Source: Pseudonocardia sp. C8 (GTDB taxonomy: Bacteria; Actinomycetota; Actinomycetes; Mycobacteriales; Pseudonocardiaceae). Taken from it: a stretch of DNA of 64,000 nt. Position 1 is the stretch's first letter. The number at the start of each line of letters is the position of its first letter. The stretch covers positions 1,911,001-1,975,000 of the forward strand of contig NZ_JACMTR010000002.1 in the NCBI RefSeq assembly GCF_014267175.1, read 5' to 3'. The notes under the pieces were generated by a model. The model was not told the DNA's origin and ran no database searches. It saw only the letters and a program-made list of their open reading frames with translations. The position numbers and the translations under genes were made by a program. Positions 18,071-31,842 of the stretch are shown in pieces.

Positions 18071-18103
18071 GGACGCAGTCGACGACGCAAGGGGCACACG
18101 AGC

Positions 18104-21100
18104 GTGACGGGCACGGATCAGACCGGTGGCACGGGCGACGGCGGCACGGACCGGGACGGCCGTTCCGCCGGACCGGGCGCGACCGGCGGTTCCGGGCGGC
18201 CGACCATGGGCGGGGGCCGCCCGGGGTCCGAGCGGTCCGCGGTCGAGCCGGAGGGCGTCGTCTTCGGGTCCGGTGAGCCGCAGGCGGACCGGCCGTCCTG
18301 GCCGGGGCCGGACGACCGCACGGCCGGGCCGGGGGACACCGCCGGTGACCCGGGGGCGCCCGGAGCGCCTGGAGCGCCCGAGACCGAGGCGCTCCCCGGC
18401 GCCGGCCCGGCCGGCCCGCGGGGTCCGCAACGCCTGCCCGGTACCGGGTGGAACCCGTACGCGCACGGGGGTCCCGGCGGTGTGCCCCGGGAGGGGGCCG
18501 GGCCGGACGGTGCCGGGCCGAACGGCCGGCCCCGGAACGGGTCCGCGCCCAACGGTCGGTCGCGCAACGGTGCTGTGCCGAACGGGAGTGGTGCGCCGAA
18601 CGGGAGTGGTGCGCCGAACGGGGGTGCTGCGCCGAACGGGGTGAACGGGCATCCGCGCAACGGGGCGCCGCGGGACGGGGCCGTCGGCGGTGACGATCGC
18701 GTGACACCGCCGGGCGGCGGCCCGCGCGCCGCGTCCGGCCCTCCCGGTGCGGCACCCGGGGGCGCCGAGGGTCCGTCCGGGCCCCCGCCCGGCGCTCCCA
18801 CCGGTCGCGCCCCGCACGGCGGCGCGGGGACCGGGCCGGGAGGACCACCCGCCGGCCCGCGGCCGCGCCCCGGGCAGCCCGCCGGTCCGACTCCGCCGGG
18901 CGCCATGCCGCCCGGGGGGTTGTTCACGCCCGCCGGCCCACGGCATCCGGGGCCCGGGACGCCCGACCGCCCCGGGAACCCGGCGGGTGAGCCCGGGCCG
19001 CCGGAGGGCCGGGGGCCCGGGCGCCCGGAGTCCGCGGGGGAGGTTCCCGGGAACGGTGCCCCGGCCGCCGACGCTACGCGTGGTGGCGGGGCGGGCCGGG
19101 ACTCCGGGAACGGTGGTGACCCGGCGGGCCGGGACTCCGGGAACGGTCGTGGCGCGGCGGGCGGTGACCAGTCGAACACCGGGCCGACGCCCACCGTTCC
19201 GGCCGACACCGGCCCGACGCGCGCCGTTCGCGCGGACACCGGTCCGACGCGCGCTGTTCGCACGGACACCGGCCCGACGAGCACCGTTCCGACGGACACC
19301 GGCCCCCTGCACGCCCCGACGTCGAGCCGTGGTGCGCAGAACCCGGCTGCGGCGCCCGGCCACCCGCAGCCCGGCGACCCCGCACACGACCGGGCACACG
19401 GCGACCCGGTACACCGTGGCCCGGCACACAGTGGCCGGACGGACGCCGGCTCGCGGCACCCCGCGGGTGTTTTCGCGACGGGGCCGCAGGCCCCGGCCGG
19501 CTCCGCGCTCTTCACACCCGGCACTGCGCCCGGCCCGCGCCCCGCGTCCGATCCGCGCCCCGCTTCCGGTCCGGGCGTCGAGTCCGACCCGCCCGCCGGG
19601 TTGGGTCCGGGCGCCGCGTCCGGTCCGCGCCCCGCCTCCGGCCCGGGCGCCGTGCCCGACCCCGGCACGTCCGGCGGGCCGGGAGGGCCGCAGGCCGCCC
19701 AGGGGCCGGGCGTGCAGGGGCCGGCCGCGCAGGGAGGGCGCGGGCAGCCGCGCCGCGGCGTGTCGCAGGCGGGTGGTGGCCCGCAGGGTGCTGGCTCCGC
19801 GGCCGGTGGTCCGCCGGCCGCACACCCGGCGCCGGCCGGTCCTCCGGCCGCACACCCGCACCCCGCGCCGATGCCACCCGGCCGGCCGGGCCTCCGTGCC
19901 CCGCAGCAGACCCGTGCGGGCGGACCGGGAGCGTCCGGGCCAGGTCCGTACGGCCCGGGCCGGCCCGGGGACCCGCAGCAGCCGGTGCCGCCACACACGC
20001 AGCACCAGGCCCCCCAGCACCAGGCCCCCCAGCACCAGGCCTCGAACGATTCCGGTGGCCCCGGCCGGCCCGCTCCCGGCGCCGACGGAACCCGGGCGTT
20101 CCCGCCCGCCACGACCCGCCCGGCCGGCGAGCCGGGCCGCGCGCCCGTGCCGGGTGCGCTGTCGGTCGTCGTCGCCGGCGGTGGCTCGGCCGGGCACATC
20201 GAACCGGCGCTCGCCGTCGCCGACGCGGTCCGCCGGCTCGTCCCCGGCGCCCGGGTCACCGCGCTCGGCACCGAGCGCGGCCTGGACACCCAGCTGATCC
20301 CGGCGCGCGGCTACCCGCTCGAGCTGATCCCGCCGGTGCCGTTGCCCCGCAAACCGTCCGCCGACCTGCTGAAGCTGCCGGGCAACGTCCGCGGTGCCGT
20401 CAGGCGGGTCCGGGAGGTGCTCGAGTCGGTGGAGGCAGACGTCGTCGTCGGCTTCGGCGGGTTCGTCTCGCTGCCGGCCTACCTCGGTGCCCGCGGCCGG
20501 GTGCCGATCGTCGTGCACGAGGCCAACGCCCGCGCCGGGCTGGCCAACAAGGTCGGTGCGCGGTTCGCCGCCGCCGTCGCCACCGCGGTGCCCGGGACCG
20601 GGCTCCCGCACGAGGAGGTCGTCGGGATGCCGCTGCGGCGCTCGATCACCACCCTCGACCGGGCCGCGCTGCGTCCCGAGGCGCGGACGTACTTCAACCT
20701 GCCCCCGCACGGGCCGGTCCTGCTGGTGTTCGGCGGATCGCAGGGCGCGCGCACGCTGAACCGGGCCGTCGCCGAGGCGCTGCCCGCTCTGAGCGAGCGC
20801 GGGATCGCGGTGCTGCACGCGTACGGCCGTAGCGGCACCCCCGCGGACCCGCGGCCCGGGTACGTCCCGACGCCCTACATCGACCGGATGGACCTGGCGT
20901 ACGCGGCGGCCGACGTCGTCCTCGGTCGCTCCGGGATGACCACCGTCGCCGAGCTGACCGCGGTCGGGCTGCCCGCCGTCTACGTCCCGCTGCCGCACGG
21001 CAACGGCGAGCAGGCGCTCAACGCGCGCCCGGTCGTGGAGGGCGGCGGCGGCATCCTGGTGCCGGACGAGGAGATGAACGGCGAACGCGCGATCGCCGAG

Positions 21101-21223
21101 CTGATGCCGATTCTCACCGACCCGGACCTGGCGCTCGCGATGGGCCGCCGGGCCAGGGCGGCCGGGCACGGCGAGGCCGACGAGAAGCTCGCCCGGATCG
21201 TGATGGAGGTGGCGGGGCGGTGA
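18104..21223 (+). CDS. murG: MurG with a very long low-complexity N-terminal extension
   Basis: 1039 residues from GTG 18104, with AAGGGG nine bases upstream. The catalytic part begins near residue 686: glycine loop VVVAGGGSAGH (688-698), VGFGGFVSLPAY, HEANARAGLANK, VFGGSQGARTLN and RSGMTTVAELTAVGLP, a normal two-domain GT28 enzyme that adds GlcNAc to lipid I to give lipid II. The first 680 or so residues are Gly/Pro/Ala/Arg-rich and disordered, with internal repeats such as APNGSG, DTGPTRAVR decapeptides and QHQAP pentapeptides. The frame is open throughout. The main alternative is that translation of the enzyme starts at GTG 20147 (about 358 residues, normal MurG length), but no ribosome site is visible there. 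It overlaps murC by GTGA. Confidence 0.85.
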   Translation: MTGTDQTGGTGDGGTDRDGRSAGPGATGGSGRPTMGGGRPGSERSAVEPEGVVFGSGEPQADRPSWPGPDDRTAGPGDTAGDPGAPGAPGAPETEALPGAGPAGPRGPQRLPGTGWNPYAHGGPGGVPREGAGPDGAGPNGRPRNGSAPNGRSRNGAVPNGSGAPNGSGAPNGGAAPNGVNGHPRNGAPRDGAVGGDDRVTPPGGGPRAASGPPGAAPGGAEGPSGPPPGAPTGRAPHGGAGTGPGGPPAGPRPRPGQPAGPTPPGAMPPGGLFTPAGPRHPGPGTPDRPGNPAGEPGPPEGRGPGRPESAGEVPGNGAPAADATRGGGAGRDSGNGGDPAGRDSGNGRGAAGGDQSNTGPTPTVPADTGPTRAVRADTGPTRAVRTDTGPTSTVPTDTGPLHAPTSSRGAQNPAAAPGHPQPGDPAHDRAHGDPVHRGPAHSGRTDAGSRHPAGVFATGPQAPAGSALFTPGTAPGPRPASDPRPASGPGVESDPPAGLGPGAASGPRPASGPGAVPDPGTSGGPGGPQAAQGPGVQGPAAQGGRGQPRRGVSQAGGGPQGAGSAAGGPPAAHPAPAGPPAAHPHPAPMPPGRPGLRAPQQTRAGGPGASGPGPYGPGRPGDPQQPVPPHTQHQAPQHQAPQHQASNDSGGPGRPAPGADGTRAFPPATTRPAGEPGRAPVPGALSVVVAGGGSAGHIEPALAVADAVRRLVPGARVTALGTERGLDTQLIPARGYPLELIPPVPLPRKPSADLLKLPGNVRGAVRRVREVLESVEADVVVGFGGFVSLPAYLGARGRVPIVVHEANARAGLANKVGARFAAAVATAVPGTGLPHEEVVGMPLRRSITTLDRAALRPEARTYFNLPPHGPVLLVFGGSQGARTLNRAVAEALPALSERGIAVLHAYGRSGTPADPRPGYVPTPYIDRMDLAYAAADVVLGRSGMTTVAELTAVGLPAVYVPLPHGNGEQALNARPVVEGGGGILVPDEEMNGERAIAELMPILTDPDLALAMGRRARAAGHGEADEKLARIVMEVAGR

Positions 21224-22638
21224 CCGTCCTCGGCACGCACGTGCACCTGGTCGGGATCGGCGGTGCCGGGATGAGCGGCATCGCGCGGATCCTGCTGGCC
21301 CGCGGCGTCACCGTCTCGGGTTCCGACGCCCGCGAGTCGCGCACGGTCACCGCGCTGCGCGCCCTCGGTGCCCGGGTGGAGGTCGGGCACGACGCCGCCC
21401 ACCTGCAGGTGGCGGGGGAGGACCCGCCGGTCGTCGTCGTCTCCACCGCCATCCGGGACACCAACCCGGAGCTGGCGGAGGCCCGGGCCCGCGGGCTCGA
21501 CGTCGTCCACCGGGCCACCGCGCTCGCGGCCCTCACCGAGGGACGGCAGCTGATCACCGTTGCCGGGACGCACGGCAAGACCTCGACGACGTCGATGGTC
21601 ACCGTCGCGCTGCAGCACGCCGGCGCCGACCCGTCGTTCGCGATCGGCGGGGACCTGTCGGTCTCGGGCAGCGGGGCCCATCACGGGAGCGGCGACGTGT
21701 TCGTCGTCGAGGCCGACGAGAGCGACGGCTCCTTCACCGCGTTCGCGCCGTCGATCGCGATCGTCACCAACGTCGAGCCCGACCACCTCGACCACCACGG
21801 TGACGAGGCCGCGTACCGCGCCGTGTTCGAACGGTTCCTGGACCGGCTGGTGCCCGGCGCGACACTGATCACCTGCGCCGACGACCCCGGCGCCGAGGAC
21901 GTCGCCGTCCACGCCGAGCGGGCCGGGACGGCGGTGTGGCGTTACGGCCGCACCGCCACCGGCGCGCGCGACGCCCGGCTGCTGCAGTTCGCCCCGGACG
22001 GCACCGGCTCCCGCATCCGGTTCCGGTGGGACGGCACCGAGCACGAGCTCGTCCTCGCCGTGCCGGGGGAGCACATGGCGCTGAACGCGCTCGGGGCGTT
22101 CCTGGCCGGGATCGCCGCCGGGCAGGACGCCACCCTGATGCTCGAGGGCCTCGCCGGGTTCGGCGGCGTCCAGCGCCGGTTCGAGTTCAAGGGCCGGGTC
22201 CGCGGCGTCTCGGTCTACGACGACTACGCCCACCATCCCACCGAGGTCGCTGCCACCCTGCGGGCGGCCCGCGAGGCCGCGCCGGTCGTGCACGGCCGCC
22301 GGGGACGGGTGCTGGTCGCCTTCCAGCCGCACCTCTACTCCCGGACGCGGCTGTTCGCGCGCGAGTTCGGCGCGTCGCTGTCGCTGGCGGACGAGGTGAT
22401 GGTGCTCGACGTCTACGGTGCGCGGGAGGACCCCGAACCCGGAGTCGGGCCGACGATGATCACCGACGAGGTTCGCCTGCCGGCCGGGCGGGTGCACCGC
22501 GCACCGTCCTGGGAGCAGACGCCCGCGGCGATCGCGGCGCTCGCCGCCGACGGCGACACGGTGATCACCATGGGCGCAGGCGACGTCACCGCGCTCGGCC
22601 CGGAGATCCTCCGCGAGCTCGCGGGGGGCGGGGACTGA
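21220..22638 (+). CDS. murC: MurC, UDP-MurNAc:L-alanine ligase
   Basis: 472 residues from GTG 21220 (GTGA overlap with murG). The N-terminal HLVGIGGAGMSGIARIL nucleotide fold, ATP loop VAGTHGKTSTTSMV, EADESDGSF, NVEPDHLDHH and YDDYAHHPTEV are all typical of MurC. It adds L-alanine to UDP-MurNAc, the first step of stem-peptide assembly. murB, which often follows murC elsewhere, is not in this cluster. Confidence 0.97.
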   Translation: MTVLGTHVHLVGIGGAGMSGIARILLARGVTVSGSDARESRTVTALRALGARVEVGHDAAHLQVAGEDPPVVVVSTAIRDTNPELAEARARGLDVVHRATALAALTEGRQLITVAGTHGKTSTTSMVTVALQHAGADPSFAIGGDLSVSGSGAHHGSGDVFVVEADESDGSFTAFAPSIAIVTNVEPDHLDHHGDEAAYRAVFERFLDRLVPGATLITCADDPGAEDVAVHAERAGTAVWRYGRTATGARDARLLQFAPDGTGSRIRFRWDGTEHELVLAVPGEHMALNALGAFLAGIAAGQDATLMLEGLAGFGGVQRRFEFKGRVRGVSVYDDYAHHPTEVAATLRAAREAAPVVHGRRGRVLVAFQPHLYSRTRLFAREFGASLSLADEVMVLDVYGAREDPEPGVGPTMITDEVRLPAGRVHRAPSWEQTPAAIAALAADGDTVITMGAGDVTALGPEILRELAGGGD

Positions 22639-22683: not shown

Positions 22684-23811
22684 ATGAGCAGCGACGACGG
22701 CGAGGGCGGGCACCCGGCCGGCGGGGGCCGCCGCACTCCCGAGCAGGAGCGGCGCGCCGCGGAGCGCGCCCGGCGGATCCGCGAGCGCCGGGCGGCCGAA
22801 CGGGCGCGCGGTGGTGCGGCGGAGCGGGCGCGGGGTGGCACGGCCGAGCGAGCGGGCGGTGATGCGGCCGAGCGAGCGAGCGGCGGCGCGGCCGAGCGGA
22901 CCGGCGGTGGAACGGCCGAGCGAGCGGGCGGTGAAGCGGCCGAGCGGACGCGCGGCGGCGCGGCCGAGCGAGTGGGTGGCGGTGGTGTCGAACGGTCGGG
23001 CAGTGGCGCGGCCGCGCGGTCGGGTGGTGGCGCCGCCGAACGGTCGGGTGGCGGCGCGGCCGCCGTCCGGGAACGCACCGCTGCCCGGTCAGCCCAGCGT
23101 GCGCGCAGCCGGGACCCGCGCTACCGGCGGCGCCGGGCGGTCGCGCTGCTCGCGACGGTCGTCGTCGTGCTGCTGGGGGTGTCCGCCGCCGGCTGGTGGG
23201 CGCTGGGCCGGTTCGGCCCTGGCGTCGCGTCGGTCGAGGTCACCGGTGCCCGGCAGATCCCGGTCTCCGATGTCGAGGACGCCGCCGCCGTCGAGCCCGG
23301 CACGCCGCTCGCGGCCGTCGACACCGACGGCGTCACTGCTCGGGTGGCCGCGATCCCCGGCGTGGCCGCGGTCGAGGTCGGGCGGTCCTGGCCGGACACG
23401 CTCACCGTCGCCGTCACCGAGCGGACCCCGGTCGCCCTGGCCGACACGCCGACCGGCCCGCAGCTGGTCGACCCCGCCGGGGTCGCCTACCGGGCCGCGC
23501 CGCCGGACGCCCGGGTGCCCCGCCTGCAGCTGCCGCGGGTCGCCCCCGACGATCCGGCGACCCTCGCCGCCGTCGCGGTGCTGCAGGCGTTGCCCCCCGG
23601 TGTCCGTGACCAGGTGCAGACGCTGTCCCTCGGTGCGGGCGGCACCACCTTCGAGCTGGGCCTCACCGACGACCGCCGGGTGCTGTGGGGTCCCTGGGCC
23701 GACACTGCCGCGACCCCGCAGCGGGCCGCCGTGCTCGGACCGCTCCTCAGCCGGGAGGGCGCGGTCTACGACGTGTCCAGTCCCGCCCTGGTCACGGTCC
23801 GCCCCCGCTGA
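22684..23811 (+). CDS. ftsQ: FtsQ, divisome scaffold with octapeptide-repeat cytoplasmic domain
   Basis: 375 residues from ATG 22684. The N-terminal 150 residues are cytoplasmic and very unusual: eleven consecutive octapeptides of the form AER-x-x-GG-x fill residues 38-125. One membrane helix follows (about 151-175, ALLATVVVVLLGVSAAGWWAL), then a POTRA domain (about 178-250, starting SVEVTGARQIPVSDVE) and the FtsQ beta domain with VTERTPVALAD. FtsQ links the inner divisome to FtsL/B and FtsWI at the septum. It is the last gene before the repeat-filled gap upstream of ftsZ. Confidence 0.93.
   Translation: MSSDDGEGGHPAGGGRRTPEQERRAAERARRIRERRAAERARGGAAERARGGTAERAGGDAAERASGGAAERTGGGTAERAGGEAAERTRGGAAERVGGGGVERSGSGAAARSGGGAAERSGGGAAAVRERTAARSAQRARSRDPRYRRRRAVALLATVVVVLLGVSAAGWWALGRFGPGVASVEVTGARQIPVSDVEDAAAVEPGTPLAAVDTDGVTARVAAIPGVAAVEVGRSWPDTLTVAVTERTPVALADTPTGPQLVDPAGVAYRAAPPDARVPRLQLPRVAPDDPATLAAVAVLQALPPGVRDQVQTLSLGAGGTTFELGLTDDRRVLWGPWADTAATPQRAAVLGPLLSREGAVYDVSSPALVTVRPR
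22795..23058 (+). repeat. 24-bp in-frame tandem repeat in ftsQ (11 units)
   Basis: Eleven 24-base units, each coding an octapeptide starting Ala/Val-Glu/Ala-Arg. The units differ at several positions, so the array has aged rather than arisen just now. It lies wholly in the cytoplasmic tail of FtsQ. Confidence 0.9.
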
Positions 23812-30237: not shown

Positions 30238-31842
30238 ATGCTGGTGCTGGTCCTGATCCTCGTGGTCATCGCGCTGGTGCTGCTGCTTGCAGGATGGTTC
30301 CTGCACGTGGTGGCACTGGCCTGGGCGTCGGTGGGCATCAGCGTGCTCGCCGGCCTCGCGCTGCTCTACGACTGGTGGCAGACCCGGTCCGCGGTGCGGG
30401 CCGGGGACCGGTCCGCAGCCGCGGGGGCCGGGCCCGGCGAGCCCGGGGCACCGGGTGCCGTGGGCGGCGCGCACGACCGGGCCGGCGCGGAAGCGCACCC
30501 GGGCCCCGACCAGGAACCGGCGACGCAGGTCCTGCCGGTGGTCCGGCCGGGGCAGGCAGGGCCTCCCGGGGCACCGGGAGCGGCGTCGGAGGACACCGCG
30601 AACGCGGCCGACCCGACGATTCGGATGCCGGTGGTCCGGCCGCCCGGCTCAGCGGAGGGACCGCCGAACGCATCTCGATCGAGTGGTTCTTCGTCACCGT
30701 CCGTGACCGATTCCGGGGGTGGAGGAGCCGCGGCCCGAGCCGGTGGTCATCCGGACGAGCCGAGGACCGCCGCCGTGCCCGGAGCGGAGGGCGCGGGTGC
30801 GGCCGCCGGGGAGGGTGCGGGTCGTGGCGGCGACACCGTGCACCCGGGAGCGCCGTCCGGTGCCGGCCGCGCGGACGGTCCGGACGCCCCCGGTTCCGGA
30901 GCCGACGGGTCCGCACCCGGATCGGCCGGGACGGGCCGGCGGGACGCGGTGACCACTGCGACGGCGGTGGGCGCGACCGCGGTGGGCGGGGCGGCCGCCG
31001 CCGCGGCCACCGGTGACCGCCGATCCGGCGAGCAGGCCGGATCGGGTACGGCCGCCGGCGGGAACACGGCCGGTTCCGGTCCGGCAGGTACGGCCCCCGG
31101 CGACCGCCAGGCGGGCTCCGGCCCGGGTGACCGGTCCGGCGAGCGATCGGGCACGACGTCCGGCGGCCCGGCCGGAGCGGCCGACCGGCCGGACACGGCG
31201 GCCACCACGGCCGTCCCCGCGGGGACGGCGACCGGCGCGACCGGGTCCCCGGCCTCCGGCGACGGCGGCGCGACCACCGCGACCGCGACCGGCACGACCG
31301 CCGGGGCCGGTACGCCCCCCGGGGCCACCGGGACCGGCGCGGCTTCCGGGACCGGCTCGGCCACCGGGACCGGTACGGCCTCCGGGACCGGCTCGGCGTC
31401 CGGGACCGATGAGGCGACCCGGGCCGGCGGGACGACCGGGACCGGCGGCGCAGCGACCGGGATCGGCGCGGCCGCCGGCGTGATCGGGACGGGCGCGGCC
31501 ACCGGCGCGATCGGGACCGGCGCGGCCACGACCGCGATGGACACGTCCGCCGCGGACCGGCCCGACGACCGGACCGCGGCCCACCCACCGCCGCCGGCGG
31601 AGGGTGAGGCCCCCGAGGAACCCCGCGACCCCACCGCGGCGAACCTCGTCGCGCGGCTCCCGGACGAGGTGCTGGTCATCGACGAGCACCCCCGCTACCA
31701 CCTGCAGACCTGCTCGTCGCTGTCCGGCCGTCCGGTGATCCCGCTCCCGGTCAGCGAGGCCGTCGAGCTCGGGTTCACCCCGTGCGCCTGGTGCACGCCG
31801 AACCGGGTCCTCGCCGAGCGGCACCCGGCCGAGGTGCGCTGA
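30238..31842 (+). CDS. Two-TM protein with long disordered linker and Ada-like metal-binding C-terminus
   Basis: 534 residues from ATG 30238. Two membrane helices (about 2-22 and 24-46) anchor it; about 400 residues of Ala/Gly/Thr/Pro-rich sequence follow, with short repeats of [10 protein letters not shown] type. The last 65 residues fold differently: [21 protein letters not shown], split here as [10 protein letters not shown] and HPRYHLQTC, then [10 protein letters not shown]. His488, Cys492, Cys516 and Cys519 have the same spacing (x3, x23 against x26, x2) as the zinc site of the Ada N-terminal domain, except that His replaces the methyl-accepting Cys. It is a conserved-looking neighbour of divIVA; function unknown. 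Confidence 0.75.

Follow-up and report, generated by a model that had tools for sequence, protein, structure and literature searches.

MurG makes lipid II and is an essential cell-wall enzyme, usually of about 360-400 residues. Flexible chains lie beside folded domains elsewhere in the divisome, as in the C-terminal linker of FtsZ, which ends in binding peptides, and in the linker of SepF. To our knowledge, there is no settled view of how actinobacteria recruit cytosolic cell-wall enzymes to their growth sites. MurG has been reported to form an oligomeric scaffold on which Mur enzymes assemble (PMC6420597), and another report places mycobacterial MurG in both cytoplasmic and membrane-domain fractions (PMC9878328). 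The murG gene of Pseudonocardia sp. C8 encodes a protein in which a long low-complexity chain precedes this enzyme, and searches of the open-access literature, judged by titles and abstract openings, brought up no description of such an extension. Beyond the original prediction made from this DNA, we find that a single clade gained the long extension, that it carries conserved islands, one of which is seen again in C-terminal tails of MurG from other actinobacteria, and that a hairpin lies in front of it.

In the window (the whole 64-kb stretch of Pseudonocardia sp. C8 DNA that was analysed), the murG frame is open from GTG 18104 to a stop ending at 21223 and encodes 1039 aa, as had been predicted (Table 1). 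Pfam places GT28 domains at residues 688-826 and 872-1020 and no domain N-terminal to residue 688, in agreement with a predicted enzyme start near residue 686 and an extension of about 680 residues. Both matches exceed their curated cut-offs (PF03033, 108.6 bits against 26.2; PF04101, 106.5 bits against 22), and the gene is the single MurG match in the whole genome. It sits in the division and cell-wall cluster, separated from ftsW by 58 nt and overlapping murC by 4 nt (21220-21223). With both GT28 domains, the ftsW-murC placement and a single copy, it resembles MurG (GT28; undecaprenyldiphospho-muramoylpentapeptide beta-N-acetylglucosaminyltransferase) elsewhere, from which it differs by the 681-981 additional N-terminal residues present in nine Pseudonocardia species. 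We regard its length, outside the usual range, as a departure in size and not as a defining failure as MurG. The ribosome-binding site expected before GTG 18104 was found as AGGGG 9 nt upstream, conserved in all nine.

Table 1. Features of the murG region in window coordinates; counts out of nine refer to the long-form Pseudonocardia genomes.
Feature	Positions	Strand	Evidence
ftsW, upstream gene, 424 aa	16771..18045	+	Pfam PF01098
Hairpin in the ftsW-murG interval, 7-bp stem and 4-nt loop	18053..18070	+	relatives have a similar one, L033 and L037 a weaker one
Ribosome-binding site AGGGG, 9 nt 5' of GTG	18091..18095	+	sequence; conserved 9/9
murG, full reading frame, 1039 aa	18104..21223	+	
N-terminal extension of MurG, predicted disordered, 681 aa	18104..20146	+	
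Island I1, (M/V)TGTDQTGG	18104..18130	+	9/9, pN/pS 0.12
Island I2, RPTMG	18197..18211	+	pattern in 9/9
Island I3, VEPEGVVFG	18242..18268	+	9/9, pN/pS 0.36
Island I4, GPRGPQRLPGTGWNPYAHGG	18413..18472	+	RLP(G/S)TGW(D/N)P in 9/9, pN/pS 0.15
Island I5, GPTPPGAMPPGGLFTPAGPR, contains the LFTP word	18884..18943	+	LFTP 9/9; pN/pS 0.28 for the first six residues
GVFATGPQ region with second LFTP copy (19508-19519)	19466..19519	+	ATGPQ pattern 7/9; second LFTP in the window only
Island I7, DGTRAFPPATTRPAGE, directly N-terminal to the core	20084..20131	+	9/9, pN/pS 0.26
MurG catalytic core, GT28 N and C domains	20147..21220	+	PF03033, PF04101
murC, downstream gene, 4-nt overlap with murG	21220..22638	+	

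MurG matches were found in 60 of 62 Pseudonocardia genomes, and the interval separating the MurG core from the ftsW stop was measured at 41 of these 60 loci (our own and 40 others). It was 2101-3000 nt at nine, 743 nt at one and -10 to 114 nt at the remaining 31. The nine long-form loci are our own and eight with 90-92% core identity to its MurG, including P. ammonioxydans (L032), P. parietis (L033) and Pseudonocardia sp. ICBG1293 (L038). Extensions in the nine run from 681 to 981 residues, none being shorter than 681, and the full proteins of the eight relatives from 1051 to 1339 aa. Public collections also contain proteins of this kind, of 1065-1136 residues, one of which (P0006) is named a MurG enzyme by NCBI. 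A quick tree built from the FtsW and MurG cores places all nine together (SH-aLRT 100, without bootstrap); the next group joins P. endophytica (L039, the 743-nt locus, with about 249 additional MurG residues) to two species with almost no extension (L040 and L041). Because the nine form one clade on this tree, the long form would most simply be a single gain, from a close or overlapping ftsW/murG arrangement, and the P. endophytica extension either a remnant or a separate gain. An essential enzyme of some 360 residues thus gained an appendage about twice its own size inside one genus; near relatives lacking it provide a natural before-and-after comparison, in which the named islands could be mutated singly.

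Two candidate sources of the extension were rejected. The clade and its nearest relatives have similar, short FtsW tails, which rules these out as donor, and for a plasmid origin a plasmid collection gave no match. Separately, three other Pseudonocardia (L055, L058 and L066) share a short MurG N-terminus, MSEYGTQFLPRMGPG (MSQYGTQYLPRMGAG in L066), that is absent from the other loci of the set.

A single genome is weak evidence for translation, because 13 of 2000 shuffles at its own base composition also keep 681 codons free of stops and antisense frame -1 is open here too. Across the nine genomes, the sense frame is open in every one and antisense -1 in six, while none of the remaining four frames is free of stops in any genome. 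Two comparisons proposed with the original prediction gave concordant results: the eight close relatives have no stop in this frame, and aligned N-termini place the AGGGG-spacer-GTG start, the frame and a (V)TGTD peptide at one position in all nine. Between the three genomes closest to each other (L034, L037 and L038), 97-99% of the bases that align keep the reading phase, codon positions 1/2/3 carry 62/75/134, 70/88/149 and 68/76/143 substitutions, and 49 of 89 gaps in the extension are multiples of three; in distant pairs, where nucleotide alignment fails, the proportion of such gaps is near one third. The synonymous/nonsynonymous comparison that had been suggested gave dN/dS of 0.40, 0.51 and 0.43 for the extension in this trio, against 0.13, 0.10 and 0.15 for the core. 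In the other frames, pN/pS was 1.2-1.9 for +2, +3, -1 and -3 (1.6-1.9 for -1) and 0.46-0.60 for -2, a frame that mirrors the sense wobble positions. Tandem-repeat arrays of the nine extensions have a period divisible by three in 136 of 149 cases.

We consider it scarcely credible that the region is untranslated, or codes on the opposite strand, with MurG beginning at 20147. Such a reading could draw on open antisense frames of 723 and 1088 aa, on G+C that is flat across codon positions (0.84/0.79/0.85) and on synonymous codon choice that is neutral in the sense frame at 0.1 bits, although this is the best of six frames, the other five scoring -58 to -186. Yet a start codon stands at 20147 in only five of the nine genomes; the other four have in-frame starts at least 28 codons upstream or a few codons into the core, none preceded by a clear ribosome-binding site by eye. 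Antisense -1 has the high ratios given above and is stopped in three genomes, and the low-ratio antisense -2 is stopped in all nine. Codon-position G+C and codon choice do not decide much, and since the openness of a single frame decides little as well, the coding case rests on the relatives. By these evolutionary tests, belonging of the extension to the MurG frame and its translation are supported, and a 2-kb untranslated insertion, which had been offered as the alternative, is rejected. At the level of sequence comparison, the clade shows a frame kept by selection and a fast-evolving extension whose spacers turn over through in-frame repeat change.

The extension is rich in Gly (24%), Pro (21%), Ala (14%) and Arg (8%), as predicted, with no Lys, Ile or Cys, and its DNA is 82% G+C. 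A membrane helix is not likely, because the most hydrophobic 19-residue window reaches only 0.57 on the Kyte-Doolittle scale; here too the earlier reading held. Its short repeat families stood in part: there are a 30-nt unit encoding DTGPT (residues 368, 378 and 388), an 18-nt PNG unit (3.6 copies) and a 15-nt QHQA(P) unit (2.8 copies), but the exact APNGSG hexapeptide occurs once and its other copies are degenerate. All nine extensions fall on the disordered side of a Uversky plot of hydropathy and charge. AlphaFold2, run with 13 sequences, modelled the extension as coil with no helix or strand before residue 687 and block pLDDT of 27-39; we count this as weak support since the core itself was also modelled poorly. 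With low hydrophobicity and no predicted fold, the extension is, by these predictions, disordered. Its composition would not favour condensate formation (9 aromatic residues in 681), and the charged fraction is 0.145.

Alignment across species fails for most of the chain, and the background between the islands of Table 1 aligns poorly. Five islands (I1, I3, I4, I5 and I7) pooled over 36 pairs from the nine genomes have a pN/pS of 0.23 at a pS of 0.40, for patterns composed after viewing the sequences. These peptides, conserved beyond their flanks and including an LFTP word kept in nine of nine, show that selection maintains several short islands. No island pattern and no LFTP-like word was found in the P. 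endophytica extension, where by eye a GPVPPNAMAP stretch resembles part of I5. Further copies of I4 and I5 elsewhere in the C8 genome gave weak matches only (best E 0.306 and 0.255). I4 contains LPGTG (LPSTG in L031), the form of a sortase signal; this is probably a coincidence because the extension has no likely membrane helix.

The LFTP word is present in all nine Pseudonocardia extensions, against 0.011 expected from shuffles, and as exact PGSLFTP in that of L036. In the six frames of the window it occurs twice, both times in the MurG extension. Searching 5.8 billion proteins with a length limit for long MurG, we scored 7993 candidates and found 236, of which 120 were listed. Among those 120, a low-complexity N-terminal extension of hundreds of residues occurred only in Pseudonocardia (P0004-P0008), once wrong-frame ftsW readings were excluded; P0114, P0118 and P0123 have 65-69 low-complexity N-terminal residues, and many other listed matches carry FtsW or Mur-ligase domains beside MurG. 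P0009, P0077 and P0109 were not counted as N-extended, their N-terminal parts matching ftsW of other loci in a non-ftsW frame. Low-hydrophobicity tails numbered 44, 10 N-terminal (one being the out-of-frame ftsW reading of P0109) and 34 C-terminal. An LFTP-like word was found in 12 of them, namely five Pseudonocardia N-terminal and seven C-terminal tails (six LFTP, and LFTT in P0114). The other 32 lacked one, including 27 of the 34 C-terminal tails, among them those of P0022 and P0032 (more than 400 residues). More generally, Pro/Gln/Gly-rich MurG C-terminal tails of up to 424 residues occur in other actinobacteria (L141, L121, L128, L133, L139, P0014, P0018, P0022 and P0032).

A second search, with one LFTP tail as query, returned 41 proteins; with P0046 added by hand, PGSLFTP was present in 42 of 42, 48-66 residues past the core, in a set biased by its query. 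Named genomes with this tail include Trebonia kvetii (L141), and the actinobacterial metagenome-assembled genome L121 also has it. These C-tailed proteins (the P0029 family and T. kvetii) resemble the long form in bearing a disordered appendage and share PGSLFTP with the L036 extension; they differ in that the tails lie at the opposite end of the protein and measure 124-249 residues in the members examined. As a control for the picking of words, shuffled extensions shared with C-terminal tails a word containing two hydrophobic residues of at least four letters in 519 of 2700 cases, at least five in 112 and at least seven in 5, and in L035 the longest word shared with those tails is VPPGPF, not LFTP. 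A class-wide search with a 16-residue LFTP query, too coarse for so short a query, gave weak matches in 17 of 394 genomes and no MurG or FtsW match at the 17 loci. Separately, LFTP in loci L172, L174, L176 and L177 lies outside MurG, apparently on the strand opposite to the operon. With PGSLFTP recurring in C-tailed MurG, set against four-letter sharing in shuffles and the many C-terminal tails lacking LFTP, we regard PG(G/S)LFTP as a possible docking motif shared with those tails, and the sharing as a real lead, not proven. A bolder reading, which we hold to be rather doubtful, is that two distant actinobacterial groups independently attached one shared docking peptide, PG(S/G)LFTP, to MurG by long disordered chains, each group at a different end of the protein, so that the lipid II synthase would be recruited to a common partner independently of the terminus.

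The ftsW stop and murG start are 55-61 nt apart in the nine genomes, with an inverted repeat in this interval. The first 34 nt of the nine leaders have a summed folding energy of -122.7 kcal/mol, against shuffles of the same base composition (500) that average -92.6 and go no lower than -115.9; three of nine single leaders fall in the lowest 5% of shuffles. In a manually set register, both bases of pairs 2, 4 and 7 vary, and L033 and L037 have one mismatch each; when the whole leader is folded, L031, L033 and L037 adopt another structure. Because the nine genomes are related, we treat conservation of the hairpin as suggestive only.

A large disordered tether on MurG had been predicted, and on the sequence evidence this is the role that we rate most likely, at about an even chance: the extension would act as a long, flexible tether, and its islands would be the sites through which MurG docks to further components of the cell-wall machinery. 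FtsW and FtsQ, suggested earlier as recruits, would be speculative partners. For a chain of 681 residues a polymer formula gives a radius of gyration of about 9.5 nm, so the flexible extension would reach well beyond the MurG core. It could thereby concentrate the enzyme that makes lipid II at growth or division sites, with the islands contacting other proteins of the cell-wall machinery and the LFTP island as the best candidate contact. The gene's own ribosome-binding site and hairpin, in place of the close or overlapping junction of most relatives, would allow translation of MurG to be uncoupled from that of FtsW. Should the LFTP island prove to be a docking site, it would offer a handle for pulling out the MurG partner. 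Counting against tethering and docking, both P. endophytica and the majority of low-hydrophobicity C-terminal MurG tails (27/34) have no LFTP-like word, and the FtsZ and SepF linkers do not follow the clade.

Lineage-specific repeats, unalignable spacers and a dN/dS of 0.40-0.51 over the whole extension, compared with 0.10-0.15 in the core, are also what would be expected of a tolerated appendage: a G+C-rich in-frame insertion, growing and shrinking by repeat slippage, in which selection preserves no more than the reading frame, the start site and enzyme solubility. We think this possible and somewhat unlikely, as islands at a pN/pS of 0.23 are kept in nine species and none of the nine extensions has fallen below 681 residues. 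The same islands count against an account in which the peptide matters little and the new leader, with its hairpin and the long first stretch, determines how much MurG is made or when. Such expression control would fit the 55-61 nt hairpin leader that replaces a close or overlapping junction, and the pairs that change on both sides, but it leaves amino-acid conservation unexplained, and the hairpin itself has a hand-set register, a mismatch in two relatives, few individually significant leaders and a divergent whole-leader fold in three; we judge it improbable. Thr-rich motifs are preferred by PknB-type kinases and bound by FHA proteins, and Thr is present in conserved islands I1, I4, I5 and I7, so that Thr-rich words such as TRAF and DTGPTRAV could form a phosphorylation hub. 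With DTGPTRAV repeats confirmed in the window only, we find this very improbable.

General growth of division-protein linkers in the clade was ruled out in the case of FtsZ and SepF, as the length ranges of genomes inside and outside the clade overlap for both: FtsZ tails of 130-182 residues and SepF spacings of 108-144 residues were measured in 21 of 21 loci. Like the MurG extension, these are flexible chains beside a folded domain; they are present throughout at steady length, whereas the extension belongs to one clade and is far longer. As linkers in the same cluster do not track the clade, no co-evolving partner is in sight. FtsQ in the window (22684-23808) has a cytoplasmic N-tail of about 140 residues built of AERARGG-like repeats; the N-tails of relatives begin at other ATGs, and in the clade 73-163 residues precede the same point, with starts uncertain. 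The gene after divIVA (30238-31839), which has no Pfam match, encodes two hydrophobic stretches at its N-terminal end, a low-complexity spacer of about 404 residues and a conserved Cys-containing C-terminal part. Of 21 Pseudonocardia loci examined, 15 have both of its ends, separated by 255-454 residues.
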